Below the pieces are notes generated by a model. It was not told the origin of the DNA. It did no database searches and worked only from the letters and a program-made list of their open reading frames with translations. Shown here piece after piece: positions 1-12,412 of a stretch of 42,938 nucleotides of DNA. The stretch is from contig JAFXHU010000021.1 in NCBI GenBank assembly GCA_017533565.1, positions 1-42,938 on the forward strand, in the 5' to 3' direction. Within the stretch, counting starts at the first letter, position 1. The number at the start of each line of letters is the position of its first letter. A program made the translations under genes and the position numbers. This DNA is from Clostridia bacterium (GTDB taxonomy: Bacteria > Bacillota > Clostridia > Oscillospirales > CAG-272).

Positions 1-4
1 AATG

Positions 5-277
5 ATGGAAGCACTTGGAATGGTAGAGACCAGAGGTCTCGTAGCAGCAATCGAGGCTGCAGATGCAATGGTTAAGGCGGCAAACGTTGTACTTATCGGC
101 TCTGAGAAGATCGGTAGCGGACTCGTAAGCGTTATGGTTCGCGGTGACGTTGGTGCGGTAAAGGCTGCTGTTGAGGCAGGCTCTGCTGCTGCTCACGCTC
201 TTGGCGAGGTTATCGCTACTCACGTAATTCCCAGACCCCACGCCGACGTTGAGAAGCTTCTTCCCGTTATCAAGTAA
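5..277 (+). CDS. BMC-H hexameric shell protein, PduA-like (copy 1)
   Basis: This is a single-domain bacterial microcompartment shell protein of about 90 residues. Six copies of such proteins form a hexameric tile of the shell facet. The sequence opens with [11 protein letters not shown], has the usual KAANVVLIG strand and the canonical pore loop KIGSGLVSV, and ends with the typical [13 protein letters not shown] segment. The product is nearly identical to the third BMC-H of the operon, differing by Val versus Ser near the C-terminus. Two in-frame ATGs stand at 2 and 5. I chose 5 by alignment with copy 3; the upstream RBS is outside the window. The gene is part of an operon that begins before position 1. 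The family assignment is very sure; the exact start is not. Confidence 0.95.
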
Positions 278-300
278 TCCTATAAAAAGGAGCTTGGTAT

Positions 301-573
301 ATGAAGGCAATAGCGCTGCTTGAGGTTCAGGCGATGGTCGCCGCAATCACGGGCCTTGACGCTATGGTAAAGGCGGCTGACGTAAAGCTCATTCACGTTG
401 AAAAGCGCCTCGGCGGACGGCTCGTTACCGTTGTCGTCGAGGGAGAGGTTTCGGCTGTCCGCGCGGCACTCGATGCGGGCGCGGCGGCTGCCGCCGAGGT
501 CGGAAAGGTTAAGTGTTGCGAGGTTATCGCAAGACCCCACCCCGACGTAATGGCATTTTTGACCACGGGCTGA
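301..573 (+). CDS. BMC-H hexameric shell protein with divergent GGR pore (copy 2)
   Basis: This is a 90-residue single-domain BMC shell protein beginning MKAIALLEVQ and ending in ARPHPDVMAFL. It starts 23 nt after copy 1 and has an AAAAGGAG RBS. The fold-defining motifs are present: DAMVKAADVKLI, VVVEGEVSAVRAALDAG and VIARPHPDV. The loop that lines the central pore reads RLGGRLV rather than the usual KIGSGLV. An Arg therefore stands next to the Gly pair, and the pore chemistry should differ from copies 1 and 3. It probably assembles as its own hexamer or in mixed tiles, with a different small-molecule preference; that is inference. Family confidence is very high. Confidence 0.95.
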   Translation: MKAIALLEVQAMVAAITGLDAMVKAADVKLIHVEKRLGGRLVTVVVEGEVSAVRAALDAGAAAAAEVGKVKCCEVIARPHPDVMAFLTTG

Positions 574-760
574 TGCCCGCGTCGGAAAGAAAACAACCGA
601 AATGGGAAAGTCGGATAAATTCGATACTCCCCATTGACGCACAGCGGAAAAGTCGCGGTTAAAAGCCACGAAACTATCCGCACCGAATTTGGTTTTTGGG
701 CAAACGCCTGAAAATATATAAATTACGCTTAATAAAAAATTTTTATAGGAGGAAAACAAA
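574..760 (+). other. 187-nt spacer between shell genes 2 and 3
   Basis: This intercistronic stretch holds no convincing ORF. Its 3' end (about 712-750) is very A+T-rich and leads into the strong RBS ATAGGAGG of the third shell gene. I see a TATAAA-like hexamer near 715-722 but no good -35 at the right distance, so I do not call a promoter. No clear terminator hairpin is visible. Confidence 0.4.
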
Positions 761-1033
761 ATGGAAGCACTTGGAATGGTTGAAACCAGAGGTCTTGTAG
801 CTGCAATCGAGGCTGCAGATGCTATGGTAAAGGCTGCAAACGTTGTACTCATCGGCTCCGAGAAGATCGGTAGCGGACTCGTAAGCGTTATGGTTCGCGG
901 TGACGTCGGTGCGGTAAAGGCTGCTGTTGAGGCAGGCTCTGCTGCTGCTCACGCTCTTGGCGAGGTTATCGCTACTCACGTTATTCCCAGACCTCACGCT
1001 GACGTTGAGAAGCTTCTCCCCTCTATCAAGTAA
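761..1033 (+). CDS. BMC-H hexameric shell protein, PduA-like (copy 3)
   Basis: This 90-residue BMC-H shell tile matches copy 1 in every residue except one near the C-terminus (LLPSIK versus LLPVIK). Its pore loop is the canonical KIGSGLV. A strong AGGAGG sits 8 nt upstream of the ATG, and the codons are GCT/GTT-rich, both consistent with a highly expressed structural protein. At DNA level the central part of the gene is almost identical to copy 1, while both ends carry scattered synonymous changes. This suggests duplication followed by gene conversion. It is followed by two strong hairpins before pduL, which may separate an abundant shell-gene message from the rest of the operon. Confidence 0.95.
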
Positions 1034-1114
1034 TTTCCTTTACCGAAGGGTAAGAAATTTCTTAAAAGGTAATTGCGGCAAAAAATCGGCGCCGCATTAC
1101 CCGATACGGGAACG

Positions 1115-1144
1115 GTATCCAAACCCCAAACGGGGTTTGGGTAC
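1115..1144 (+). other. Intercistronic stem-loop upstream of pduL
   Basis: The arms 1115-1127 and 1132-1144 form a 13-bp stem (one T-G wobble) closed by the loop AAAC. No U-tract follows, so it is not a standard terminator. It overlaps by 4 nt the left arm of the larger inverted repeat 1141-1237, so the two structures compete. A role as an mRNA processing or stability element is inferred. Confidence 0.6.
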
Positions 1145-1237
1145 TGCATAAGCATATTGAGAGAAAACGCTTGTTTGCTTTGAATTTTGGTGGCGGCGGA
1201 CGCCACCGGGCGAAAATCTTATGTGCTTATGCAGTAC
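1141..1237 (+). repeat. Perfect 14-bp inverted repeat enclosing an inner hairpin
   Basis: GTACTGCATAAGCA at 1141-1154 is exactly the reverse complement of 1224-1237. The stem can extend inward by about three more pairs through a G-T wobble. The enclosed region contains a second hairpin, GGTGGCG paired with CGCCACC around 1189-1207. This makes a long structured element in the 247-nt gap between the shell genes and pduL. It could be an mRNA segmentation signal or a small intergenic repeat element; the sequence alone does not decide. Confidence 0.6.
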
Positions 1238-1280
1238 ATACGGGCGAATGCCCAAATCAATAAACCGAAAGGATACGGAT

Positions 1281-1976
1281 ATGGAAAACATTGAAAAGAC
1301 CGTTGCGGAAATAGTAAGACAGGTTATAGCAGGCATTGAAGCGGGAGAAAAGACCTCTTGCGATGGCTGTAAATCCTCTTGTGGCGCGTCCTGTGCCTCC
1401 ACCTCGGAGGTCCCCGTCGGCGTATCTAACAGACACATACACCTTTGCCGTGCAGACCTTGAAACGCTTTTCGGAAAGGGCTACGAGCTTACACCCTTTA
1501 AGGACCTTTCCCAGCCGGGGCAATACGCCTGCAAGGAAACGCTTACCATTGTAGGACCGTCGCTTCGCCCGATTGAAAACGTGCGCGTGCTTGGACCGGT
1601 AAGAGGCGCGTCGCAGGTTGAGATTTCCAAAACCGACAGCTACACCCTCAAGGTAAAGCCTCCGGTAAGAGAGTCGGGCAAAATCGCAGGCTCCTCCCCC
1701 ATCACGATTATCGGACCGAAGGGAGTTGTCACGCTTACCGAGGGCTGTATTATCGCAAACCGCCACATACATATGTCGCTTGAGGACGGTGCAAGATTTG
1801 GGGTGAAGGATAACGACTACGTCACCGTTGACGTAGAGGGAACAAGACGCACAAGATGGTACGACGTACAGGTTAGAGTACACAAGGATTTCCGCCTTGA
1901 AATGCACGTTGATACCGACGATGCAAATGCTGTCGGAATCGGCAACGGCTGTAAGGTAAAAATCGTAAAAGAGTAA
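1281..1976 (+). CDS. pduL: PduL-type phosphate propanoyltransferase
   Basis: PduL converts propionyl-CoA (or acetyl-CoA) plus phosphate to the acyl phosphate, which frees CoA inside the microcompartment and allows ATP formation by a kinase. The two metal-binding motifs are present: SNRHIH at residues 49-54 and ANRHIHMS in the second half. Residues 1-22 (MENIEKTVAEIVRQVIAGIE...) form an amphipathic helix typical of BMC encapsulation peptides. The linker that follows holds four closely spaced cysteines (C27, C30, C34, C38), which is unusual. The start at 1281 gives this peptide and has GAAAGGA upstream; the longer ORF from 1221 would begin inside an inverted repeat. The length of 231 residues fits PduL with an N-terminal extension. 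Confidence 0.93.
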   Translation: MENIEKTVAEIVRQVIAGIEAGEKTSCDGCKSSCGASCASTSEVPVGVSNRHIHLCRADLETLFGKGYELTPFKDLSQPGQYACKETLTIVGPSLRPIENVRVLGPVRGASQVEISKTDSYTLKVKPPVRESGKIAGSSPITIIGPKGVVTLTEGCIIANRHIHMSLEDGARFGVKDNDYVTVDVEGTRRTRWYDVQVRVHKDFRLEMHVDTDDANAVGIGNGCKVKIVKE

Positions 1977-2053
1977 CCCCGTGTTAAAAAAACGGCGCTT
2001 TTCGTACGGGCTGCGCCGCCAAATACCGCAAAATAATTTAAAGAGGTATAAAA

Positions 2054-2308
2054 ATGTTAAAGGGAATTATTATCGGACACATCGTGTCAACAAGAAAGCA
2101 GGAAAGCCTCGTAGGCAGCAAGTTTATGGAGGTTGAAATTATCGAAAACGGCGAAAGAACCGGCAAGTATATGGTTGCAATCGACTCCGTCGGTGCGGGC
2201 ATCGGCGAAACCGTGCTTATTACCACGGGCTCGTCCGCGCGCCTTGCGCTTCGCAACACCTCCGCGCCTGCCGATGCCGTTATCGTCGGTATCGTTGACG
2301 CAAACTGA
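2054..2308 (+). CDS. BMC-P pentameric vertex protein (EutN/CcmL family)
   Basis: This 84-residue protein belongs to the EutN/CcmL (PduN/GrpN) family. Its pentamers cap the vertices of the polyhedral shell. It opens with the expected MLKGIIIGHIVSTRKQESLVG and contains the family motif DSVGAGIGETVLI followed by TGSSAR. The RBS AAAGAGG lies upstream of the ATG. It is the only BMC-P in the window, consistent with one vertex protein per compartment, though more could be encoded upstream. It lies between pduL and the pduS-like gene in the same direction and is part of the same operon. Confidence 0.95.
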   Translation: MLKGIIIGHIVSTRKQESLVGSKFMEVEIIENGERTGKYMVAIDSVGAGIGETVLITTGSSARLALRNTSAPADAVIVGIVDAN

Positions 2309-2315
2309 TTTTTGA

Positions 2316-2330
2316 GCCGCAATTTGCGGC
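2316..2330 (+). other. Small intercistronic hairpin
   Basis: GCCGCA and TGCGGC pair around an ATT loop between the BMC-P gene and the pduS-like gene. There is no U-tract, so termination is unlikely; the element may tune expression between the two cistrons. Confidence 0.35.
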
Positions 2331-2372
2331 GTAGCATTTGATTTAACGCCCGCAAGCGGCGAAAGGAAAAAT

Positions 2373-3686
2373 ATGGACTTAAAGGAATTGATGAAGGAGA
2401 GTGGCATAGTCGGTGACGGTGGAGCAGGGTTTCCATCCTACGCCAAGCTTGCCGAGGGTGCCGACACCCTTGTGGTGAACGGCTGTGAGTGTGAGCCTCT
2501 CCTCTATACAGACTACACGATTTTGAAAAGAGAGCTTCCAATGGTGCTCCACGGCATTCGTGCTGTTATGGAATACTGTAAGCTCGGGCGTGCACTCCTT
2601 GCGGTAAAGGAGCACACGGCAAAAAGGCTCGGATTTACCGAGGGGCAAAGGCTTGCCGACGGCGTTTATGCGCGCGTGCTTGGCAACACCTATCCCGCGG
2701 GTGACGAAATCACCCTCATATACGAGGCGACGGGAAGACTCGTGCGCCCCGGCAATCTCCCGCTTACAAAGGGGGTTATAGTATATAACGTCGAAACGAT
2801 GTACAATCTCGCCCGCGCTATGAAATACGGGGAGAGTGTTACCACGAAATGGCTTACCGTCGGTGGCGATATTGACAGACCCGTGGTGCTTCGCGTGCCT
2901 ATCGGCACGCTTGTGCGCGACATATTCGAAAGGCTCGGAATAACGGTTGACGAGGCTCACTCGGTTATAGAGGGCGGACCCTCTATGGGTAAAATAATCA
3001 ACCACGAAACCGCCGAGATTTGTAAAACCACGAAGGCTATACTCGTTTTGCCAAACGACGTGCGTGCCGTTGAAAGCAAGCTCATAAACGAGCGTGCCGC
3101 TGTGAAAAGAGCCGAAACCGCCTGCTGTCAATGCACGCGCTGTACCGATATGTGTCCGAGATTTTTGCTCGGCTATCCGCTTGAGCCGCACAAAATGGTA
3201 CGCACCGCGATGAGCGTTGCCGACGCCACCCCCGACCTCGTGCTTACCGCAACGCTTTGCTGCGGATGCGGAATATGCGAAAACCTCGCCTGCAGTCAGG
3301 GCATCTCGCCGAGGGCGGTTATCAACAATTACAAGGCACTCCTCGGTAAAAATAAAATGAAATTTATCGGCAAGGACGAGGTCTTTGCAAGATACGAAAG
3401 AGAATACAGAAAAATTCCGTCGGAAAAATGGGCTGCAACGCTCGGTGTTGCGAAATACGACAGGGTGGCGGAATATATCGGCGAAATCAACGACTTTGAC
3501 CGTGTGGAGCTTCCGCTTGGAAGGTTTATCGGCGCACCCTCGATGCCCGTCGTAAGGGACGGAGAGGAGGTAAGAATCGGACAAATCGTTGCCGTTGCGC
3601 GCGACGGTCTTTCGGTTTCGCTTGCCGCCTCCATTAACGGAAGGGTCACCGTTTCCGACACCGAAATAATGATAGATAGGGTATAA
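2373..3686 (+). CDS. pduS: PduS/RnfC-like flavin and Fe-S electron-transfer protein
   Basis: This 437-residue protein matches PduS, a relative of RnfC and of the NuoF flavin/NADH-binding subunit. The N-terminal half holds the glycine-rich GDGGAGFPSYAK segment and VNGCECEPLLYTDY, expected to bind FMN/NADH. Two ferredoxin-like clusters follow: CCQCTRCTDMCP and LCCGCGICENLAC. A C-terminal SLBB-like or barrel region ends the protein. In B12-dependent Pdu compartments PduS reduces cobalamin. Here the signature enzyme is B12-independent, so NADH oxidation or electron export through the PduT-like shell protein encoded 3 nt downstream is more likely (inference). Start chosen by GCGAAAGGA upstream and the family N-terminus. 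Confidence 0.9.
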   Translation: MDLKELMKESGIVGDGGAGFPSYAKLAEGADTLVVNGCECEPLLYTDYTILKRELPMVLHGIRAVMEYCKLGRALLAVKEHTAKRLGFTEGQRLADGVYARVLGNTYPAGDEITLIYEATGRLVRPGNLPLTKGVIVYNVETMYNLARAMKYGESVTTKWLTVGGDIDRPVVLRVPIGTLVRDIFERLGITVDEAHSVIEGGPSMGKIINHETAEICKTTKAILVLPNDVRAVESKLINERAAVKRAETACCQCTRCTDMCPRFLLGYPLEPHKMVRTAMSVADATPDLVLTATLCCGCGICENLACSQGISPRAVINNYKALLGKNKMKFIGKDEVFARYEREYRKIPSEKWAATLGVAKYDRVAEYIGEINDFDRVELPLGRFIGAPSMPVVRDGEEVRIGQIVAVARDGLSVSLAASINGRVTVSDTEIMIDRV

Positions 3687-3689
3687 AAG

Positions 3690-4235
3690 ATGTATAAGGC
3701 AATAGGTGTAATTGAATTAAAATGCATACCGAAGGGTGTGGAGGCGGCGGATGCCGCGCTCAAAAGCGCGGGCGTCGAGATGGTTTCCTCGCATCCCTCC
3801 TGTCCCGGAAAATACGAAATAATTCTTTCCGGCTCGATTTCAAACGTAAGCGCGGCGGTAAATCACGTGGTTTCCCGCTTTGAGGGCTACGTTATCGACC
3901 ATTCGATTATGGGACGTATAGACGAGCAGGTTATCTCCGCGCTTTTCGGCACGCAATCGGTTGATGCGCGCGGCTCTCTCGGACTTATCGAAACCTTCTC
4001 CGCGGCAAGCGCGATAAAGGCGGCGGACGTGGCTGTAAAGACGGCTCGCGTGGAAATTCTCGACCTTCGCGTTTCGCGCGGTATGGGCGGAAAGGGCGTT
4101 GTCCTTCTCGTCGGAGAAATCGGTGACGTTACCGCGGCAACGGAGGCGGGTGCGGAGTATGCGCGCACGGTCGCAAGCCTTTCCGCAACCTCGGTTATCG
4201 CCGCCCCGCACGAGGAGCTTTGGCGTCAGCTTTGA
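3690..4235 (+). CDS. pduT: PduT-like tandem-domain shell protein (BMC-T) with Fe-S cysteine
   Basis: The protein has two fused BMC domains: residues 1-about 90 (MYKAIGVIELKCIPKG...) and about 95-181 (GSLGLIETFSAASAIKAAD...). Three copies make a pseudohexameric tile. The first domain contains the sequence SCPGKY with Cys at residue 38. This is the position at which Salmonella PduT carries the cysteine proposed to ligate a 4Fe-4S cluster at the pore. The conserved C-terminus APHEELWRQL also matches PduT. The gene begins 3 nt after the pduS-like stop codon, so the two are almost certainly co-translated partners. The shared task is likely electron transfer across the shell. Confidence 0.93.
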   Translation: MYKAIGVIELKCIPKGVEAADAALKSAGVEMVSSHPSCPGKYEIILSGSISNVSAAVNHVVSRFEGYVIDHSIMGRIDEQVISALFGTQSVDARGSLGLIETFSAASAIKAADVAVKTARVEILDLRVSRGMGGKGVVLLVGEIGDVTAATEAGAEYARTVASLSATSVIAAPHEELWRQL

Positions 4236-4309
4236 TAGCCCCTTCCCGTCGCTTGCTTGGCGGGAGCTTAAAGTGAAATCATTACATAAAAATTCCGAAA
4301 GGACTGCTT

Positions 4310-6841
4310 ATGGAACAGATAAAATTCGTAATTGAAAAGAGCGCGAGAATAGATAAGCTTATAAGCGCGCTTTACGAGAAAATGCCCGAGATTGAAACCT
4401 CGCGCGGAGTGCTTGTAACCGAAAGCTACAAGGCTACGGAGGACCTCCCGATTATCAGAAGAAGGAGCGCGGCGTTTTCCCACATTCTTAAAAATATTCC
4501 CATCGTAATCCGCGACGGAGAGCTTATCGTCGGAAGCGCGACGGTCACCCCCCGCGGCTGTCAGGTATTCCCCGAATACTCCTACGAATGGCTGGAGGCG
4601 GAGCTTGACACGGTTGCAACCCGTGCCGCCGACCCGTTCTATATTTCGGAGGAAAACAAGGCGGTGCTTCGTGAGATTTATCCCTGGTGGCACGGAAAGA
4701 CCTGCTCCGACCTTGCAAGGGCGAATATGTCGCCCGAGGCGTACGCCGCATTTACGAAGCACGCGATCTTCACCCCGGGAAACTATTTCTATAACGGCAT
4801 AGGTCACGTATGCGTAGATTATCCGAAGGTGCTTAAAATCGGCTACCGCGGAATTATCAACGAGGCGCAAAGGGCGATGGATAAGCTTGACGTATCCGAC
4901 GCCGATTACGTAAGCCGCACGAATTTCCTCTTTGCGGTTATCGAAAGCTGTGAGGCGGTTATCGAATACGCCCGCCGCTACTCCCGACTTGCCCGCGATA
5001 TGGCAAAGGCGGAAAAATGCAAATACCGCAGGGCGGAGCTTGAAAAAATCGCAAGAAACTGTGCGCGCGTGCCCGAATTCGGAGCGCAGAGCTTCCACGA
5101 GGCGTGCCAGTCCTTCTGGTTTATTCAGATGCTCCTTCAGGTTGAGTCGTCGGGTCACTCCATCTCGCCCGGACGCTTTGACCGGTATATGTATCCCTAC
5201 TACAAAAAGGATATAGATGCGGGCGTTATCACGCGCGAGGAGGCACAGGAGCTTCTCGACTGCGTATGGGTAAAGCTTAACGATATCAACAAGGTAAGAG
5301 ATGCGGCGTCCGCCGACGGCTTTGCGGGCTACGGAATGTTCCAAAACCTTATCGTCGGAGGACAGGACGAGCATGGACTTGACTCCACAAACGACCTTTC
5401 CTATATGTGTATTGAGGCGGCTATGCACGTGCCGCTGCCCCAGCCCTCCATTTCCATAAGAATTCACAACGGCACTCCCGATAGCCTTATGCTGAAGGCG
5501 GCGGCGCTTACAAGACTCGGCACGGGACTTCCCGCATATTACAACGACGAGGTTATCATTCCCTCGATTATGGCTCGCGGTCTTACGCTTGAGGACGCGC
5601 GCGACTACTGTATTATCGGCTGCGTAGAGCCGCAGGCTCCGCACAAGACCGACGGCTGGCACGATGCGGCGTTCTTCAATATGTGCCGCCCAATGGAGCT
5701 TGCCTTCAATTCGGGAATGGACAAGGGTGTGAAAATCGGCGTGGATACCAAGCCCGTGGAGGAAATGACCTCCTTCGACGAGTTCTACGATGCCTATAAG
5801 GCACAGCAGAGCTATATGATAAAGCTTCTTGTAAACGCGAATAACGCCATTGACCTTGCCCACGCGGTAAGATGCCCGCTTCCTTTCCAAAGCTGTATGG
5901 TTGATGACTGTATCGGACGCGGCAAATCGTTGCAGGAGGGCGGCGCGATTTACAACTTTACAGGACCGCAGGGCTTCGGCATTGCAAACAACACCGACGG
6001 TCTTATCGCGGTAAGACAGCTCGTTTTTGAGCAGAAGAAATACACCCTTGCCGAGATAAGAGAGGCACTCAAGGCAAACTTCGGCTACGGACTTTCGGGC
6101 ACGGCGGCTCTTAATCTTACCACCGAGATTGCCACCGAGCTTGCAAGAGAGGGGATTGAAATCAACGAGGCGGCTGTCCGCACCATTTATAACGAGGTGA
6201 CGACCTGCGGCTCGCTTTCCGCCGAAACGAAGGCGAAGTACAGAGAGCTTAAGCGAGCGATAGACGAGGACTGCCCCAAATACGGTAACGATATTTACGA
6301 GGTGGATATGTTTGCGCGCGACGTTGCAAACACCTACACAAGAGAGGTTGAAAAGTACAAAAACCCCCGCGGCGGTATCTTCCAGGCGGGACTTTACCCC
6401 GTATCCGCTAACGTTCCGCTTGGCGGCACGACGGGCGCAACCCCCGACGGAAGGCTCGCATACACACCTCTTGCCGACGGCATAGGACCCGCTTCGGGCA
6501 GGGACGTAAAGGGACCCACCGCAACCGCAAACTCGGTTGCAAGGCTGGAGCAGGGCGTTGCCTCCAACGGCACGCTTCTTAACCAAAAGTTCCACCCCTC
6601 GGCACTTGAGGGAATGGGCGGTCTTATGAAATTCTCCGCACTCATTCGCTCATACTTTGACCAAAAGGGTATGCATATGCAGTTCAACGTCGTAACGAGA
6701 GAAACGCTTCTCGACGCGCAAAAGCACCCCGAAAATTATAAAACCCTCGTAGTCAGGGTTGCGGGCTATTCCGCACTCTTTACCACTCTTTCAAAGTCCT
6801 TGCAGGACGATATTATCAATAGAACACAACAAGGATTTTGA
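4310..6841 (+). CDS. Glycyl radical diol dehydratase (propanediol/glycerol dehydratase type)
   Basis: This 843-residue glycyl radical enzyme is the signature enzyme of the microcompartment and probably dehydrates 1,2-propanediol to propionaldehyde without B12. The thiyl-radical motif GCVEP has Cys438 and Glu440, and the glycyl loop RVAGYSA has the radical Gly819 near the C-terminus. Residues known in Clostridium butyricum glycerol dehydratase are matched: His166 (NGIGHVCVDY), His283-Ser284 (GHSISPGRFD), and the KTDGWHDAAF segment placing Asp452 14 residues after the Cys. That segment separates it from choline lyase and pyruvate formate-lyase. Against the roughly 787-residue C. butyricum enzyme as I recall it, there is an extra segment of about 55 residues near 594-652. 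Glycerol is a possible alternative substrate. Confidence 0.93.
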   Translation: MEQIKFVIEKSARIDKLISALYEKMPEIETSRGVLVTESYKATEDLPIIRRRSAAFSHILKNIPIVIRDGELIVGSATVTPRGCQVFPEYSYEWLEAELDTVATRAADPFYISEENKAVLREIYPWWHGKTCSDLARANMSPEAYAAFTKHAIFTPGNYFYNGIGHVCVDYPKVLKIGYRGIINEAQRAMDKLDVSDADYVSRTNFLFAVIESCEAVIEYARRYSRLARDMAKAEKCKYRRAELEKIARNCARVPEFGAQSFHEACQSFWFIQMLLQVESSGHSISPGRFDRYMYPYYKKDIDAGVITREEAQELLDCVWVKLNDINKVRDAASADGFAGYGMFQNLIVGGQDEHGLDSTNDLSYMCIEAAMHVPLPQPSISIRIHNGTPDSLMLKAAALTRLGTGLPAYYNDEVIIPSIMARGLTLEDARDYCIIGCVEPQAPHKTDGWHDAAFFNMCRPMELAFNSGMDKGVKIGVDTKPVEEMTSFDEFYDAYKAQQSYMIKLLVNANNAIDLAHAVRCPLPFQSCMVDDCIGRGKSLQEGGAIYNFTGPQGFGIANNTDGLIAVRQLVFEQKKYTLAEIREALKANFGYGLSGTAALNLTTEIATELAREGIEINEAAVRTIYNEVTTCGSLSAETKAKYRELKRAIDEDCPKYGNDIYEVDMFARDVANTYTREVEKYKNPRGGIFQAGLYPVSANVPLGGTTGATPDGRLAYTPLADGIGPASGRDVKGPTATANSVARLEQGVASNGTLLNQKFHPSALEGMGGLMKFSALIRSYFDQKGMHMQFNVVTRETLLDAQKHPENYKTLVVRVAGYSALFTTLSKSLQDDIINRTQQGF

Positions 6842-6858
6842 TTTTTAGCGAATTTTTA

Positions 6859-6889
6859 ATTTGCCGCAGCAATTTATCCGACGGCAAAT
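6859..6889 (+). other. Hairpin between the GRE and activase genes
   Basis: ATTTGCCG (6859-6866) pairs with CGGCAAAT (6882-6889) across a 15-nt loop in the 93-nt gap. No U-tract follows. It may lower activase expression relative to the GRE or protect the upstream message 3' end (inference). Confidence 0.45.
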
Positions 6890-6934
6890 GAATTTAACCG
6901 CAATTTAACCTAACAAAGCGAAAGGAGGAACACC

Positions 6935-7720
6935 GTGAGCCATTACGATACGAGGGGCAGAATATTTAATATTCAACGCTTTTCCATACACGACGGACCC
7001 GGAATACGCACCATAGTGTTCCTCAAGGGCTGTTATTTGCGGTGTGCGTGGTGCTGTAACCCCGAGTCGCAGCGCTACGAAATCGAAACGATGACCGAGG
7101 GAGGAAAGACGAAAACCGTCGGGCGCGACGTAACCGTTGCCGAGATAATGCCCGAAATTCTCTCCGACCTCCCCTATTACAGAAGAAGCGGCGGCGGCCT
7201 TACCCTCTCGGGCGGTGAGGTGCTTGCACAGGCGGATTTTGCCCGCGACCTTCTTCGTGCCGCGAAGGAAAACGGACTTCACACGGCAATCGAAACCGCG
7301 GCGTCCTTGCCGTTTGGCGAGATTGAAAAGCTTTTACCCTATCTCGACCTTATTATGATGGATATAAAGCTTCTCGACCCCGAAAGGCATAGGGAATATA
7401 CGGGTGCGGACAACTCGCTCATTCTCGCAAATGCAAGACTGCTTGCCGAGTCGGGCGTAAGGCTTATAATTCGCACCCCCGTAGTGCCGGGTGTAAACGA
7501 CGGCGATGCCGACATCCGCGCGATAGCCTCCTTTGCACGAGGGCTTGGCGGGGTGAGCGAGTATCACCTTTTACCCTATCACAGGCTTGGAAGCGACAAG
7601 TACGACGGACTTGGAAGGCGGTATTCGCTTTCCGAGATAAATCCGCCCTCAAGAGAAAAAATGGAGCATCTTCTCTCGGTTGCGGAGGAGTCGGGACTGA
7701 AATGCCAAATCGGCGGCTAA
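6935..7720 (+). CDS. Glycyl radical enzyme activase (radical SAM)
   Basis: This protein installs the glycyl radical on the neighbouring GRE, using S-adenosylmethionine and a 4Fe-4S cluster. The radical-SAM motif GCYLRCAWC supplies Cys33, Cys37 and Cys40 (CxxxCxxC), and LTLSGGEVLAQ is the SAM-binding GGE motif. The sequence runs directly from CCNPES to the next conserved helix. It lacks the cysteine-rich ferredoxin-like insert found in many GRE activases such as those of glycerol dehydratase, which explains the short 261-residue length. The start is GTG, set by an ideal AAAGGAGG 7 nt upstream. It lies directly after the GRE, as in nearly all GRE loci. Confidence 0.95.
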   Translation: MSHYDTRGRIFNIQRFSIHDGPGIRTIVFLKGCYLRCAWCCNPESQRYEIETMTEGGKTKTVGRDVTVAEIMPEILSDLPYYRRSGGGLTLSGGEVLAQADFARDLLRAAKENGLHTAIETAASLPFGEIEKLLPYLDLIMMDIKLLDPERHREYTGADNSLILANARLLAESGVRLIIRTPVVPGVNDGDADIRAIASFARGLGGVSEYHLLPYHRLGSDKYDGLGRRYSLSEINPPSREKMEHLLSVAEESGLKCQIGG

Positions 7721-7730
7721 TATACACCCC

Positions 7731-7740
7731 GTGTTAAATT
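7731..7740 (+). repeat. Dispersed intergenic motif CCCCGTGTTAAATT
   Basis: The 10-mer GTGTTAAATT, preceded by CCCC, lies just after the activase stop codon. The same or near-same motif lies just after stop codons at 1981, 12430, 16241 and 26645, and in the rimI-tsaD gap at 32846. Function unknown. Confidence 0.5.
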
Positions 7741-7836
7741 AAAAAGCAAAAAACGGATTTTGCCCGCCGTTTCGGTTGGTAAAGAAATGTAAACAAAGGT
7801 TAGAAAACACAAGCATTTATATAAAAGGAGTTTATT

Positions 7837-8196
7837 ATGGAGCTTCATGAAAATATGAGAATAGTCCAAGAGCTTGTCCCCGGTAAGCAGGTGACGCTTT
7901 GTCACATTATTGCAAACCCCGACGACATTCTATATGTAAAGCTTGGACTTGACCCCCGTACCGATTATACGAGAAGCGCAATCGGCGTTTTGACGATTTC
8001 ACCCGCGGAGAGCGCGGTTATTGCCGCGGATATTGCTCTTAAATCCTCGGGCGCGGAGGTCGGCTTCGTTGACCGCTTTACGGGCACGCTTATTATTTCG
8101 GGAAGCGTATCCGCGGTAGAGTCCGCATTCACCGCGATAAGAGAGTACGTTATCAACAAGCTCGGCTACACCTGCTGCGAGCTTACGAAAACCTAA
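7837..8196 (+). CDS. pduU: PduU/EutS-like circularly permuted BMC-H shell protein
   Basis: This 119-residue protein matches the PduU/EutS family, a BMC-H shell protein with permuted secondary structure whose hexamer carries an N-terminal beta-barrel over the pore. The family hallmarks are clear: RIVQELVPGKQVTLCHIIANP near the N-terminus, IGVLTISPAESAVIAADIALKSSGAEVGF, then FTGTLIISGSVSAVESA, ending CELTKT. A strong AAAGGAG precedes the ATG. In Salmonella, PduU is the proposed docking partner of the GTPase PduV, and a PduV homologue is encoded next. The four genes from here to 9996 may form a localisation module. Confidence 0.95.
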   Translation: MELHENMRIVQELVPGKQVTLCHIIANPDDILYVKLGLDPRTDYTRSAIGVLTISPAESAVIAADIALKSSGAEVGFVDRFTGTLIISGSVSAVESAFTAIREYVINKLGYTCCELTKT

Positions 8197-8237
8197 TTTG
8201 ACCGAAGGACGGTAGCTTTACCGAGGCGGTAAAAGAA

Positions 8238-8684
8238 ATGAAAAAAATAATCCTTATCGGAAGGGTTGCTGCGGGAAAAACCACCCTGACACAGGCTCTG
8301 CGCGGAGAGGACATTCACTACTATAAAACGCAGTATATAAATTACCTCGATACCATCATCGACACCCCGGGAGAGTACACCGAGCTTCGCCAGACCTCGG
8401 GTGCGCTTGCGCTTTACGCCTACGAGGCGGATATTGTCGGCTTGGTTTTGAGCGCAAACGAGCCGTATTCCATTTTCTCCCCCTGCATTACCAGCCTCGT
8501 AAATCGCGAGGTTGTCGGAATTATAACGGGAATAGACAAGCCGGACGCCAACGTGGAGCGCGTGGAAAGGTGGCTTCGCCTTGCGGGGTGTAAGAAAATT
8601 TTTCCTCTTTCCGCATACACGGGCGAGGGGATAAGGGAGCTTCTCAACTACCTGCGCGAGGAAGGCGACCCCGAAATAGAATAG
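8238..8684 (+). CDS. pduV: PduV/EutP-like GTPase
   Basis: This small Ras-like GTPase of 148 residues belongs to the PduV/EutP family found in many BMC loci. The P-loop GRVAAGKTT (residues 8-16) and the switch-II motif DTPGEY are present. The NKxD-equivalent region reads TGIDKPDA, as in EutP/PduV. The C-terminus has the SAYTGEGI motif (G5-like). Salmonella PduV associates with the outer shell surface, apparently through PduU, and has been linked to compartment movement; here pduU precedes it by 41 nt. The gene is followed by a ParA-type ATPase, which strengthens the idea of a positioning role. The start ATG has a weak RBS (GAGGCGGTAA). Confidence 0.92.
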   Translation: MKKIILIGRVAAGKTTLTQALRGEDIHYYKTQYINYLDTIIDTPGEYTELRQTSGALALYAYEADIVGLVLSANEPYSIFSPCITSLVNREVVGIITGIDKPDANVERVERWLRLAGCKKIFPLSAYTGEGIRELLNYLREEGDPEIE

Positions 8685-8700
8685 CGCAAAAACTTGACAC

Positions 8701-8719
8701 GCCCCACGGCTTTTGGGGC
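8701..8719 (+). other. Hairpin ahead of the parA-like gene
   Basis: GCCCCA (8701-8706) pairs with TGGGGC (8714-8719) just before the RBS AAAGGAG. There is no U-tract. It could modulate ParA translation or mark a processing point. Confidence 0.4.
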
Positions 8720-8732
8720 GAAAGGAGCAAAA

Positions 8733-9524
8733 ATGAGCAGAACGAAGGTTATTACCTTTGCAAATAACAAGGGTGGAAGCGGAAAGACAACCACCACCTC
8801 GAATATAGGTGCGGCAATGGCAAGGCTCGGAAAGCGGGTGCTTCTCGTTGACGGGGATATGCAGATGAATTTGACGCTCTCCTTCTTTGACGAGGAAAGG
8901 TCGCTTGCACTTGCGGAGGGGGATAAAAACATCTACACCGCAATAAGGGAGGAGCGCGACCTCTCCGACTTCGTTATACCGACGGGAATTGAAAACCTTG
9001 ACATTATACCGTCGAGCTCGCTTATGAGTGGGATAGAGTTTGACCTCTTTACGAAATGGCAAAGGGAGCTTATCCTCAAAAAGTGCATTTCGCCGATTCT
9101 TGCGCGCGGCTATTACGATTACGTGCTTATCGATGCGCCCCCGACCCTCGGCGGCTGGGTTATGAATATTATGTGCGCGGCAGACTACGTTATCATTCCC
9201 GTTGAGGCAAGCCCGTGGGGACTTTTCGGACTTGCGAATATGTTTGACTTTATAAATAAGGTGCGCTCTATTGCTCCGAGGCTTGAGGTCCTCGGCATTG
9301 CGATAACGAAGGCGGACGAAAGAAAGAGCTATTTCAAGCAAACGCTTGAAACCCTTCGCGAGTTTGAGGCGGCGCGGCTTTTTGAAACCTACATTCGCGT
9401 TGACGCCACCGTTGAATGGGCACAGGATAACAGCCAGCCCGTCGTAACCTACAAAAAATACAGCCGCTCCGCGGTTGAATATACCAAGCTTGCAAAGGAG
9501 ATTATGAAGTATGCCGATAGGTAA
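8733..9524 (+). CDS. ParA/MinD-family ATPase, candidate microcompartment positioning factor (McdA-like)
   Basis: This 263-residue deviant-Walker ATPase of the ParA family has the N-terminal P-loop NNKGGSGKTTTTS with signature Lys13 and Lys18. The Walker A' segment LLVDGDMQMN has Asp40 and Asp42, and the Walker B-like segment is DYVLIDAPP near residues 127-135. Such ATPases bind DNA non-specifically as ATP dimers and move cargo over the nucleoid when a partner stimulates hydrolysis. No ParB or parS is nearby. Instead the gene follows pduU-pduV and overlaps by 14 nt a gene for a basic low-complexity protein. By analogy with McdA of carboxysomes, the cargo is likely this microcompartment (inference). 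Start 8733 is set by AAAGGAG; an in-frame TTG at 8694 lacks an RBS. Confidence 0.92.
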   Translation: MSRTKVITFANNKGGSGKTTTTSNIGAAMARLGKRVLLVDGDMQMNLTLSFFDEERSLALAEGDKNIYTAIREERDLSDFVIPTGIENLDIIPSSSLMSGIEFDLFTKWQRELILKKCISPILARGYYDYVLIDAPPTLGGWVMNIMCAADYVIIPVEASPWGLFGLANMFDFINKVRSIAPRLEVLGIAITKADERKSYFKQTLETLREFEAARLFETYIRVDATVEWAQDNSQPVVTYKKYSRSAVEYTKLAKEIMKYADR

Positions 9525-9996
9525 AAATTCGCTCAAGAGAGTAACCAACAACGGTTATTCCGCGGTAAAAACGAGCGCTCCCGATATGGAAAACAGCACG
9601 GTGGCAGAGCCTGCCGCAGCAAAGGCAACACCCGCGCCCGATAAAAAAGCGGCAGCGGCAAGTGCGGGAGCAAAAAAGACCTCCGCCACGGCAAAGGTGG
9701 CAGGCTCAAAGACTCCTGCGGCTGCAAAATCCGCCGCAAAGCCAACCGAAAAAACTCCTGCGGCTGCAAAACCCGCCACTAAAAAGACTCCCGCCGCAAA
9801 GACCTCGGCAAAGCCCGCGGCAAAATCCGCCGCAAAGTCCGCGCCGACGAAGAAAAAGCCGACGCCGAGCGTAAGCTCAACGACCATTCCCGCACCCGCG
9901 GAGGTAGTGATGGCGGTTGTAGCTCCCGCACCAAGCACCAAGGAGGAAAAGCCGTATTGCAACCTCGGTGACAGCCTCCCGATACATCTTTTATAA
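9511..9996 (+). CDS. Low-complexity Ala/Lys/Pro-rich protein, candidate ParA partner (McdB-like role)
   Basis: I do not recognise a named family for this 161-residue protein. Residues 1-31 (MPIGKNSLKRVTNNGYSAVK...) look ordered and basic, resembling the short N-terminal basic motifs by which ParA partners stimulate the ATPase. Residues about 32-145 are an Ala/Lys/Pro/Thr tract with repeats such as KTPAAAK, histone-H1-like and presumably disordered. The C-terminus KPYCNLGDSLPIHLL is a distinct hydrophobic tail that could bind shell or enzyme. The ATG overlaps the ATPase gene by 14 nt and has AAAGGAG within that gene, so the two are translationally coupled. It is the last gene of the operon. 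A DNA-condensing role is an alternative. The function is inferred from context only. Confidence 0.85.
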   Translation: MPIGKNSLKRVTNNGYSAVKTSAPDMENSTVAEPAAAKATPAPDKKAAAASAGAKKTSATAKVAGSKTPAAAKSAAKPTEKTPAAAKPATKKTPAAKTSAKPAAKSAAKSAPTKKKPTPSVSSTTIPAPAEVVMAVVAPAPSTKEEKPYCNLGDSLPIHLL

Positions 9997-10001
9997 AAAA
10001 C

Positions 10002-10054
10002 AAAGCCACCGTCCTTGGGTATGCTTCGGCAGTCACCCGTGCGGCGGCTTTTTT
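10002..10054 (+). terminator. Rho-independent terminator of the BMC operon
   Basis: AAAGCCACCG (10002-10011) pairs with CGGCGGCTTT with one mismatch. An inner stem GGGT/ACCC and a TGC-TTCG-GCA apical hairpin with a UUCG tetraloop make a long structured stem. A run of T follows at about 10048-10054. Confidence 0.85.
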
Positions 10055-10155: not shown

Positions 10156-10184
10156 TTGAATTTAAAAACAATAAATGCTAAAAT
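10156..10184 (+). promoter_or_regulatory. Sigma-A-type promoter of the GH78 gene
   Basis: TTGAAT at 10156-10161 and TAAAAT at 10179-10184 are 17 nt apart, with an extended -10 TGC. Transcription would start near 10191, which rules out the ATG at 10175 and supports the start at 10217. Confidence 0.75.
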
Positions 10185-10216
10185 TTGCTTGGCAATACGC
10201 CGAAAAGGGGGATAAA

Positions 10217-12412
10217 ATGGAAAAGAAATTTATATCTGCAACGAAAGAGTATTCCGAGCTTGAAAGACATATTCCCGCACCGTATTTAAGGCGGAGCTTT
10301 AGAATTGACGAAGCGGCGAGAGAGGCAAAAATCAGAATATGCGGACTCGGCTTTTACATTCTCTATATAAACGGAAAACGGGTTTCAAAGGGGCATATCG
10401 CACCCTATATTTCCAACCCCGACCACGTATGCTACTACGATACCTTTGACGTAACCGAGCTGCTTTCCGTCGGCGAAAACGTTATCGGCGTTATTCTCGG
10501 AAACGGCTTTCTTAACTGTGCGGGAGGCTTCATTTGGGATTTTGACGATGCGAATTTTCGCTCCGCGCCTATGCTTGCGCTGGAGCTTTCGGTAAGGACC
10601 GACTGCGGCGAAATTACGCTCAACGCTGACGGGGAGTTTCTCACCCATCCGTCGCCCATCACCTTTGACGATATTCGCGGCGGCGAAAATTACGATGCGC
10701 GCCTTGAAATCGAGGGCTGGAGCAGGGCGGGCTTTGATACCGAGGGCTGGACTCCCGCAATTGCCGCACCCACTCCACGAGGCAAAATGAGGGAATGCAC
10801 CGCAGAGCCGATAAGGGCATACCGTGAAATTTCTCCCGTAAGCATAACGAAAGAGGGCGACGCCTTCATATACGATTTTGGCATTAACACCGCGGGAATT
10901 ACCCGACTTCGTATAAAGGGAGAGCGCGGTCAGCTCGTTACACTTTGGCACGCGGAGATGCTTCGCGACGGCAAATTTTACAACGATAACATTCGTTTTA
11001 TCCGTCCCGATGCGGGGGCATACGATACCTATAACCAAACTCTGCGCTTTATCTGCTCGGGAGGTGAGGACGTTTACGAGCCGCATTTCCACTATTCGGG
11101 CTTCCGCTACGTAAAGGTGGAGGGGATTACCGAGGAGCAGGCAACCCCCGAGCTTCTTACCTATCTCGTTATGTCCTCCGCGCTTGAGAGCATCGGCGGC
11201 TTCAAATGCTCAGACGAAAGGCTTAATACGCTTTTCGCAATGGTTAAAAATGCCGACAGGTCGAATTTCTTCTATTTTCCCACCGACTGTCCGCACCGCG
11301 AGAAAAACGGCTGGACAGGTGACGCCTCGCTGTCCTCCGACCACACGACTCTGCTTTTTAGTACCGAAAAAAGCTACCGCGAATGGCTTTACAATATAAG
11401 ATGCGCGCAACGGCTTGACGGTGCGCTCCCCGGAATTGTGCAGACGGCGGGCTGGGGCTTTGAATGGGGCAACGGACCTACGTGGGACAGCGTGCTGTTT
11501 AACCTCCCCTATACGCTTTACAAATACCGCGGCTGTACGGACGTTATTCGCGAAAACGCACACGCGATGCTTCGCTACCTTGAATACGTAATCACGAAAA
11601 GGTCGCCCGACGGCACTGTTGCGATAGGTCTTGGCGACTGGGTGCCCGTCAACAAGGAGGCGCACGATTACGATGCACCGCTTGCCCTGACCGACAGCGT
11701 AATGGTTATGGATATGGCAAGGAAGGCTGCCGAAATGCTGGGTGCTGTCGGTATGAAGCACCAGGCGGCTTTTGCCAACGGAATTTATCTTGATATGCGC
11801 GAAACCGTGCGCCGCGAGATGGTTGACCTTGAGTCCCTCGTTGTGAAGGGAGAATGTCAGTCCTCGCAGGCGATTGCCCTCTATTACGGTGTTTTTGAAA
11901 AGGGAGAGGAACAGGGCGCGCTTGCCCATCTTCTTCGCTTCATTCACGCAAAGGACGATGCCTTCGACTGCGGATTTATCGGAATGCACTGTATTTTCGA
12001 CGTGCTTGCAAGGCTTGGCGAATACGACCTCGCATACGAAATGATTACCCGCGACAAATTCCCGTCCTACACGCTCCTTATCGAGCAGGGGCATACCGCA
12101 ATCCCCGAGCATTTCTTTGACGAGTCACACGCACCAAGCTCCTATAATCACCATTTCCTCGGCGATATTGCCCGCTGGTTTATGACGCGTCTTGCGGGTC
12201 TTAACGTCATTGACAGCAGGACGGTGGAGATTGCACCCTGTCCCGTTCACGGTATAGATTTTGCACAGGCGTATTACGACCTTCCAAAGGGTAGGGCAGC
12301 CGTCCGCTGGAGCCGCGACGAAAACGGAAAGGTGGAGGTCGATTACACCGTTCCAACGGGTGTAACCGTCCGCCATTGGAGCAGCTCAAGCGAAAAGGTG
12401 GCGTTTGATTGA
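10217..12412 (+). CDS. Alpha-L-rhamnosidase, glycoside hydrolase family 78
   Basis: This 731-residue enzyme should release terminal L-rhamnose from plant glycosides or polysaccharides. The GH78 catalytic signature DCPHREKNGWTGD is intact, with Asp357, Glu362 and Asp369 at the spacing (0, +5, +12) seen in characterised GH78 enzymes. The C-terminal catalytic-barrel motif around EQGHTAIPEHFFDES and SYNHHFLGD is also present. N-terminal beta-domains occupy roughly residues 20-320. No signal peptide is seen, so it probably acts inside the cell on imported oligosaccharides. Start 10217 has AAAAGGGGG upstream and lies just after a promoter. L-rhamnose breakdown yields 1,2-propanediol, the probable substrate of the adjoining microcompartment, so the neighbourhood makes metabolic sense. 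Confidence 0.92.
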   Translation: MEKKFISATKEYSELERHIPAPYLRRSFRIDEAAREAKIRICGLGFYILYINGKRVSKGHIAPYISNPDHVCYYDTFDVTELLSVGENVIGVILGNGFLNCAGGFIWDFDDANFRSAPMLALELSVRTDCGEITLNADGEFLTHPSPITFDDIRGGENYDARLEIEGWSRAGFDTEGWTPAIAAPTPRGKMRECTAEPIRAYREISPVSITKEGDAFIYDFGINTAGITRLRIKGERGQLVTLWHAEMLRDGKFYNDNIRFIRPDAGAYDTYNQTLRFICSGGEDVYEPHFHYSGFRYVKVEGITEEQATPELLTYLVMSSALESIGGFKCSDERLNTLFAMVKNADRSNFFYFPTDCPHREKNGWTGDASLSSDHTTLLFSTEKSYREWLYNIRCAQRLDGALPGIVQTAGWGFEWGNGPTWDSVLFNLPYTLYKYRGCTDVIRENAHAMLRYLEYVITKRSPDGTVAIGLGDWVPVNKEAHDYDAPLALTDSVMVMDMARKAAEMLGAVGMKHQAAFANGIYLDMRETVRREMVDLESLVVKGECQSSQAIALYYGVFEKGEEQGALAHLLRFIHAKDDAFDCGFIGMHCIFDVLARLGEYDLAYEMITRDKFPSYTLLIEQGHTAIPEHFFDESHAPSSYNHHFLGDIARWFMTRLAGLNVIDSRTVEIAPCPVHGIDFAQAYYDLPKGRAAVRWSRDENGKVEVDYTVPTGVTVRHWSSSSEKVAFD

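Follow-up and report, generated by a model that had tools for sequence, protein, structure and literature searches.

A ParA-type ATPase and a two-motif adaptor as a probable positioning system for a glycyl-radical diol-dehydratase microcompartment

We analysed a stretch of 42,938 nucleotides from a Clostridia bacterium (contig JAFXHU010000021.1; hereafter the window) and found that the ParA ATPase and the small adaptor encoded by the final two genes of its microcompartment (BMC) operon (window 2-9996) probably form an McdAB-like positioning system for a GRM5-type microcompartment, in which fucose or rhamnose would be processed via 1,2-propanediol. This reading is built on the gene anatomy of the pair, on conserved motifs at the two ends of the adaptor, and on a genome-level tie of the ATPase to BMC genes and to the type of diol dehydratase, which holds also where pair and operon are unlinked. 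Since this ParA occurred only in BMC-positive genomes among those checked, the pair probably spaces compartments. ParA-type positioning has been demonstrated for carboxysomes and, in the literature consulted, only proposed for catabolic microcompartments; the ParA clade described here is a compact candidate in gut Firmicutes, and its two short adaptor motifs predict contacts with ParA and with the shell.

Results

The pair ends a GRM5-like operon

The operon of the window runs through three BMC-H genes, PduL, EutN, PduS/RnfC, PduT, a glycyl-radical enzyme (GRE), its activase, EutS, EutP, ParA and the partner (Table 1). Because the window begins inside the operon, genes further upstream lie off the contig. 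By gene content it is a GRM5-like glycyl-radical diol-dehydratase microcompartment: the diol-dehydratase GRE, PduS and PduT are all present, and the structure that best matches the GRE, 5i2a, is a diol dehydratase from Roseburia inulinivorans. The class II aldolase, the aldehyde dehydrogenase and the zinc alcohol dehydrogenase that belong to the GRM5 make-up in the consulted passages of PMC6325248 and PMC4207490 were found in a related locus (L018); in the window they would lie off the contig.

The first-pass annotation had placed the pair at the end of the BMC operon, ahead of its terminator, and the gene order bears this out. The hairpin and T-run that follow the adaptor gene (10002-10051) are the likely operon terminator; the hairpin has a folding energy of -23.9 kcal/mol (z -2.16, with 5 of 200 shuffles equally stable) and is absent from the output of a stricter terminator scan of the window.

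Other features of the locus are recorded here for completeness. An alpha-L-rhamnosidase gene (10175-12412) lies directly 3' of the operon, in keeping with a rhamnose-fed compartment. The near-identical BMC-H genes at 2-277 and 761-1033 flank a diverged third copy, and their near-identity suggests recent duplication or gene conversion. Between eutP and parA, which lie 48 nt apart, there is an inverted repeat rich in G and C (CGCCCC...GGGGCG, 8700-8720) that has no T-run. On the minus strand, a 452-aa open frame (8193-9551) runs antisense to parA and is most likely a by-product of codon usage.

Table 1. Features of the BMC operon and of the ParA-adaptor pair in the window.
Feature	Position	Strand	Evidence or remark
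BMC-H shell protein	2..277	+	PF00936 2.6e-29; at contig edge
BMC-H shell protein	301..573	+	PF00936 2.2e-19
BMC-H shell protein	761..1033	+	PF00936 2.5e-29; near-identical to the 2..277 copy (translation)
PduL phosphate propanoyltransferase	1281..1976	+	PF06130 1.8e-77
EutN/CcmL-type BMC-P protein	2054..2308	+	PF03319 1.4e-28
PduS/RnfC-like electron-transfer protein	2373..3686	+	PF01512 2.8e-32, RnfC_N; TIGR01945
PduT-like BMC-T shell protein	3690..4235	+	PF00936 in two stretches; TIGR02526 3e-28 (below TIGR02526 cut-off)
Glycyl-radical diol dehydratase (GRE)	4310..6841	+	best PDB match 5i2a, residues 8-841, E=0
Glycyl-radical activase (radical SAM)	6935..7720	+	PF04055 6.9e-19
EutS-like BMC-H shell protein	7837..8196	+	PF00936 2e-12; NF012012 2.2e-30 (below NF012012 cut-off)
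EutP/PduV GTPase-like protein	8238..8684	+	PF10662 6.6e-52
McdA-like ParA ATPase, 263 aa	8733..9524	+	Pfam AAA_31 8e-54; starts with ATG at 8733, last base of the stop codon at 9524
Deviant Walker A KGGSGKT with signature lysine K13	8769..8789	+	sequence; K13, K18 invariant
McdB-like adaptor, 161 aa	9511..9996	+	starts with ATG at 9511, last base of the stop codon at 9996
Conserved N-terminal motif MPIGKNSLKR, proposed ParA-contact peptide	9511..9540	+	column counts over partners
Conserved C-terminal motif LPIHLL, proposed shell-contact peptide	9976..9993	+	column counts; His at usual aromatic position
Hairpin then T-run, likely operon terminator	10002..10051	+	folding versus shuffles

A discrete clade of ParA ATPases

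The deviant Walker A motif, which the first-pass annotation had called intact, reads NNKGGSGKTT in the window ParA, and K13 and K18 are invariant across 30 aligned ParA sequences, the window one included. Judged by search scores, the window ParA belongs to a discrete clade. Its members occurred in 7 of the 295 genomes of the order (all E <= 5.8e-98) and in 22 of the 200 genomes sampled from the family to which G299, the source of Robinsoniella locus L114, belongs (all E <= 5e-117), in both cases with a gap below that reached down to 1e-50, and in 3 of 391 genomes of the class (all E <= 2.6e-106, with a limit of 1e-45). Isolates with this ParA clade include Blautia schinkii, B. caecimuris and Robinsoniella peoriensis.

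When the PDB was searched with a ParA profile, ParA/Soj chains took the top three places at 114-136 bits, above McdA (6noo) at 66 bits; by these scores the closer relatives of the window ATPase are Soj/ParA proteins, and the McdA of the solved structure is more distant. Soj has two DNA-contact arginines, one of them in a DxRxN stretch, and in the alignment only that one has a counterpart in the window ParA, R197.

The closest plasmid ParA is 38.7% identical and the closest phage match 37.7%, and on these figures a plasmid or phage origin of the ATPase was rejected. A close match to a plasmid ParA with a parS nearby, which had been named beforehand as contrary evidence, did not occur: a search of the window for parS, allowing up to 3 mismatches to its consensus, gave 0 hits with 0.13 expected. 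The related claim that the pair has neither a ParB partner nor a parS likewise held, as the window adaptor had no Pfam or NCBIfam match at E <= 0.01. The window genome encodes a second ParA-like gene, which adjoins a full ParB with an HTH.

Two short motifs on a variable basic linker

The adaptor gene overlaps parA by 14 nt (9511-9524) and encodes, as had been noted from the sequence, a basic low-complexity protein (24% Ala, 16% Lys, net charge +17). Going by composition, the adaptor is small, low in complexity and probably disordered. An adaptor was present after 102 of 108 related ParA genes, with the exact 14-nt overlap in 82, and this pairing exceeds chance; three genomes each contribute two of the 108 loci (L017/L066, L018/L059, L164/L123), and with 5 identical pairs among the 102 adaptors there are 97 distinct sequences. 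Relative to parA, the adaptor starts at -13 in 82 cases, at -25 in 10 and at -9 in 7.

Adaptors were recognised by at least one of two end motifs, M-x-[IV]-G-K-x-[SA]-[ILM]-x-R at the N-terminus and LP-x-[YFWH]-L-L at the C-terminus, and 101 of the 102 have both by the patterns used; the sole adaptor without the strict N-terminal motif (L180) reads SVGAGSIKR. Among the 97 distinct adaptors, residue 5 is Lys or Arg in 94 and residue 10 is Arg or Lys in 96. At the other end Pro stands at -5 in all 97 and Leu at -2 in 96, and position -3 is Phe, Tyr or Trp in 84 and His in 13, including the window adaptor. Mean pairwise identity, taken over 800 random pairs, was 67% for the first 10 residues and 56% for the last 8, against 17% for residues 31-50 of the linker, which is basic and unconserved. 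Adaptor length ranges from 63 to 202 aa and net charge from 0 to +28 (median +9), and Ala, Lys, Pro and Thr make up 47% of the median adaptor (n=102). The strict C-terminal motif gave 11 matches among the 2612 ORFs of L161-L200; 11 known partners fit it, so by our own count no further ORF has the motif. As aligned, the adaptor is two short conserved motifs on a variable basic linker, the McdA/McdB layout.

The ATPase co-occurs with microcompartments and a diol dehydratase

Whether the pair tracks BMC genes had been proposed as a check on its function, and the outcome is strongly in favour: all 40 ParA-positive genome handles tested hold BMC shell genes. These 40 comprise 7 from the order, 22 from the G299 family, 2 further ones from the class and 11 genomes whose locus among the best 80 had no shell gene in the sequence available (G299 and G303 being also among the 22), and some of them are possibly one species twice. 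The BMC domain PF00936 was found in 37 of the 295 genomes of the order and in 57 of the 200 of the G299 family, with all 7 and all 22 ParA-positive genomes, respectively, among them (Fisher p 2.9e-7 and 3e-14, in tests that do not control for phylogeny). One genome, G347, counts as BMC-positive by a single PF00936 match (9.2e-16). The 25 genomes listed for the family of the window divide into 8 that are BMC-positive, of which 7 had the ParA, and 17 that are BMC-negative, of which 0 had it. All three ParA-positive genomes of the class sample are BMC-positive, the third (G000) being also one of the order's 7.

The association extends to the type of GRE. A homologue of the window GRE (E <= 1e-250) was present in 38 of the 200 genomes of the G299 family, and ParA occurred in 21 of these 38, in 1 of 19 genomes that were BMC-positive and GRE-negative, and in 0 of 143 that were BMC-negative. 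Among the BMC-positive genomes of this family ParA goes with the window-type GRE (p 1.6e-4), and 21 of the 22 ParA-positive genomes have a diol dehydratase homologue. ParA was absent from 17 of the 38 GRE-positive genomes, from G285 (a GRE-positive member of the window's family) and from all 20 BMC loci L027-L046 in other families of the order, which represent 19 of the 29 BMC-positive genomes outside the window's family. With this many GRE-positive or BMC-positive genomes lacking it, ParA is dispensable.

Unlinked pairs

The named loci are the 80 best of a set of relatives that numbers at least 439, weaker ones being outside the sample. Shell genes lie near ParA in 69 of the 80, and the genomes of the other 11 all have BMC genes. 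Two of these 11 loci (L073 and L084) end close to ParA. The remaining nine (L103, L108, L109, L110, L114, L118, L121, L122, L123) have no shell gene near ParA, and six of the nine cover the full 10 kb on either side. Seven are from Blautia, Murimonas, Robinsoniella or Lachnospiraceae and two from Eubacteriales; the record of L108 is flagged as possible contamination.

Of the 22 ParA-positive G299-family genomes, 10 have ParA and BMC genes on a single contig and no more than ~30 kb apart, 11 have no shell gene in ~9 kb or more on each side, and G347 was assigned to neither group. In those 11 the BMC matches listed sit either on a different contig or at a distance above 70 kb, and in G448 ParA and BMC genes share a 1.5-Mb contig at a distance of more than 400 kb. 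Homologous pairs mostly away from BMC loci had been anticipated as evidence against a compartment role. This did not occur: none of the 40 is BMC-negative, although in the 11 genomes just described ParA is not close to the BMC genes.

In a ParA tree of 68 rows made by a quick method, the G299-family ParAs and the unlinked loci form one clade (SH-aLRT 100) among BMC-linked sequences; its root position is unsure because four outgroup rows are very long. The nesting suggests that unlinking of the pair from the BMC operon was secondary. As far as the literature was checked, it is new that unlinked pairs still track the compartment.

Neighbours are shared by L108 and L114 (many) and by L103 and L110 (a few). 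Another cargo for the nine unlinked loci, such as the AdhE and Fe-ADH near L114, is not favoured, because any given neighbour is shared by at most three of the nine and every genome has BMC genes.

ParAs without an adaptor and adaptors with a ParB_N domain

In the G299 family, six of the 22 genomes with ParA (G467, G452, G343, G417, G408, G382) have no adjacent adaptor. The six ParAs (L165, L167, L168, L169, L172, L177) form one subclade (SH-aLRT 91), and a search with an adaptor profile built from 10 partners (E limit 1) found no adaptor elsewhere in these genomes. With the same profile, adaptors were recovered from all 5 control genomes, three of which (G448, G303, G478) had sequences in the profile and two (G320, G462) had none. 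The ParAs of this subclade have either a different adaptor or one beyond recognition. Some of them adjoin an asparaginase-like gene, an AraC-type regulator and a sugar kinase, as read by eye.

Two of the 102 adaptors collected, L162 (G414) and L174 (G461), carry ParB_N (PF02195) between the usual end motifs and are without the ParB HTH. Their ParB_N scores (1.1e-13 and 5.8e-10) are above the Pfam cut-off, and they are 33% identical to each other. To the extent of the literature checked, a ParB_N domain in this position is new. No further chimera was found in 387 genomes at E <= 1e-12, and the region of the L162 chimera had no DNA match on plasmids. Against the ParB of the window genome the two scored 33 and 24 bits, and against the ParB-like protein of Acetoanaerobium 24 and 22 bits; neither matched the Peptoclostridium ParB.

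The nearest plasmid ParAs (38-39%) come from Peptoclostridium and Acetoanaerobium, and each has an 11-nt overlap with a ParB or ParB-like gene; in the other five of 7 plasmid or phage-scaffold ParA relatives inspected, a ParB-like neighbour was not recognised. The chromosomal ParB of the window genome starts ...GLGRGL, and many adaptors read VGKGSI. The chimeras, the overlap with plasmid ParB and this likeness together hint at a parAB origin, although for descent of the adaptor from ParB they are suggestive only. Counting against such an origin are the better scores of the chimeras with the ParB of the genome than with the Acetoanaerobium protein, the missing match to the Peptoclostridium ParB and the five relatives in which no ParB-like neighbour was recognised. 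We tentatively entertain, as possible rather than probable, that a parAB cassette was captured by the organelle: the adaptor would be a stripped ParB that kept the ParA-activating N-terminus, shed the parts that bind DNA and acquired a tail that binds the shell, the chimeras would be relics, and the origin would be separate from that of carboxysome McdAB. If the ParB link is true, a DNA-partition adaptor can turn into an organelle adaptor.

Discussion

Proposed function and alternatives

In the mechanism we propose, an ATP-bound ParA dimer would coat the nucleoid and the adaptor would sit on the compartment shell via its C-terminal LP-x-aromatic-L-L peptide. The N-terminal IGK...R peptide would contact ParA, stimulating ATP hydrolysis and releasing ParA locally. 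Each compartment would then follow the gradient of leftover ParA, and compartments would end up spaced and divided between daughters. Nucleoid binding, shell binding, ATPase stimulation and spacing are steps that we infer. That the carboxysome principle serves a GRE compartment was the central idea of the first-pass annotation; the genome-level tie to BMC genes strengthens it, while positioning and inheritance stay at the level of the model. Against a strict two-gene system stand the adaptor-less subclade (6 of 22) and the many GRM5-like genomes without the pair, and against the positioning reading itself stand the dispensability of ParA, the His that replaces Phe, Tyr or Trp at the aromatic position of the window adaptor, and the Soj DNA-contact arginine that has no counterpart in the window ParA.

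The adaptor could instead work as a tether and not a ratchet, with a basic Ala/Lys/Pro linker that binds DNA and hangs the compartment on the nucleoid while ParA only tunes release. The charge range and the share of Ala, Lys, Pro and Thr fit such a role, and by eye the linker is histone-H1-like. However, adaptor length and linker sequence vary while the end motifs are kept, and we consider a tether unlikely. A ParABS-like system that segregates or silences DNA and is unrelated to the organelle would agree with Soj/ParA as the nearest solved structures, with the ParB-like genes that overlap the two nearest plasmid relatives and with the two adaptors that have ParB_N. Yet the window is without parS, its genome has the separate ParA-like gene with a full ParB, five other plasmid or phage-scaffold relatives are without a recognisable ParB-like neighbour, and all 40 clade-bearing handles are BMC-positive even when the pair is far from the BMC genes; this reading is very unlikely. 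The pair might also be an accessory that travels with GRM5 operons and has no positioning role, as its absence from many GRM5-like genomes would allow, but hitch-hiking sits badly both with the retention of the overlap and end motifs and with a ParA that is confined to BMC-positive genomes even though 11 of 22 have no shell gene ~9 kb on each side. We regard it as most improbable. Positioning of the compartments thus remains the reading that we favour.

Comparison with known systems

Like the carboxysome McdA/McdB of Synechococcus elongatus and Halothiobacillus neapolitanus, the pair combines a ParA ATPase with a small low-complexity adaptor and is tied to a BMC. The window holds a deviant-Walker ParA in a BMC operon and an adjacent low-complexity partner with a basic N-terminus. 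In the consulted sections of PMC12204374 and PMC10241942, the McdB layout includes a basic peptide at the N-terminus that serves the ATPase; in H. neapolitanus McdB, McdA is bound by the first 20 residues, among which one lysine is key (PMC12204374). Carboxysome association of McdB needs a C-terminal aromatic, and acidic neighbours accompany this aromatic in the shell-directed end of the layout, according to passages of PMC11321042. The adaptor resembles carboxysome McdB in its basic N-terminus with a key lysine, in conserved acidic residues at the C-terminus and, for 84 of the 97 distinct sequences but not for that of the window, in a C-terminal aromatic. It differs in ending on LP-x-[YFWH]-L-L (LPIHLL in the window) and not on a Trp motif, and the likeness appears to be one of layout, without established sequence homology. 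The proposed cargo is a catabolic GRM, unlike a carboxysome, and the window operon is GRE-type without carboxysome genes. The ATPase matches Soj better than it matches the McdA of known structure, and two partners have ParB_N, a combination that does not support descent from carboxysome McdAB.

With ParABS/Soj-Spo0J and plasmid parAB the pair shares the ParA family and a ParB N-terminus that resembles that of the adaptor. In contrast to these systems, the adaptor has no HTH, the window has no parS, and ParB_N is present in 2 of 102 adaptors only.

For other compartments, the literature is as follows in the parts consulted. Axen et al. (PMC4207490) count ParA among the ancillary genes, with no mention of it in their GRM5 passage, and placing of Salmonella Pdu compartments is unaffected by McdAB or ParA/MinD (PMC12866334). 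McdA, partition and positioning are absent from the main text of the BMC catalogue PMC8217296. That no system of this kind has been characterised for GRE compartments had been stated at the outset; it stands insofar as a full-text literature search, within the text accessible to it, found no paper that tests what a ParA pair of a GRM locus does, whereas the idea itself is already published for GRM loci. Putative McdAB pairs of other BMCs are given in PMC8262871, PDU and GRM McdB-like proteins whose last five residues include Tyr or Phe, with acidic residues close by, are described by Basalla et al. (PMC11321042), and a review (PMC13052382) reports mcdAB-like genes near EUT and PDU operons. The consulted parts of these papers make no mention of pairs that are unlinked from the operon, of adaptors that carry ParB_N or of a ParA subclade without an adaptor. 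The window pair shares with the putative PDU/EUT/GRM pairs (MacCready and Vecchiarelli 2021; Basalla et al. 2024) a BMC-associated McdB-like protein, and it is most likely of their kind, matched by description rather than by sequence. McdAB-like pairs near PDU, EUT and GRM loci are thus a published proposal (PMC8262871, PMC11321042, PMC13052382, as far as consulted), for which the comparative support given here is new.
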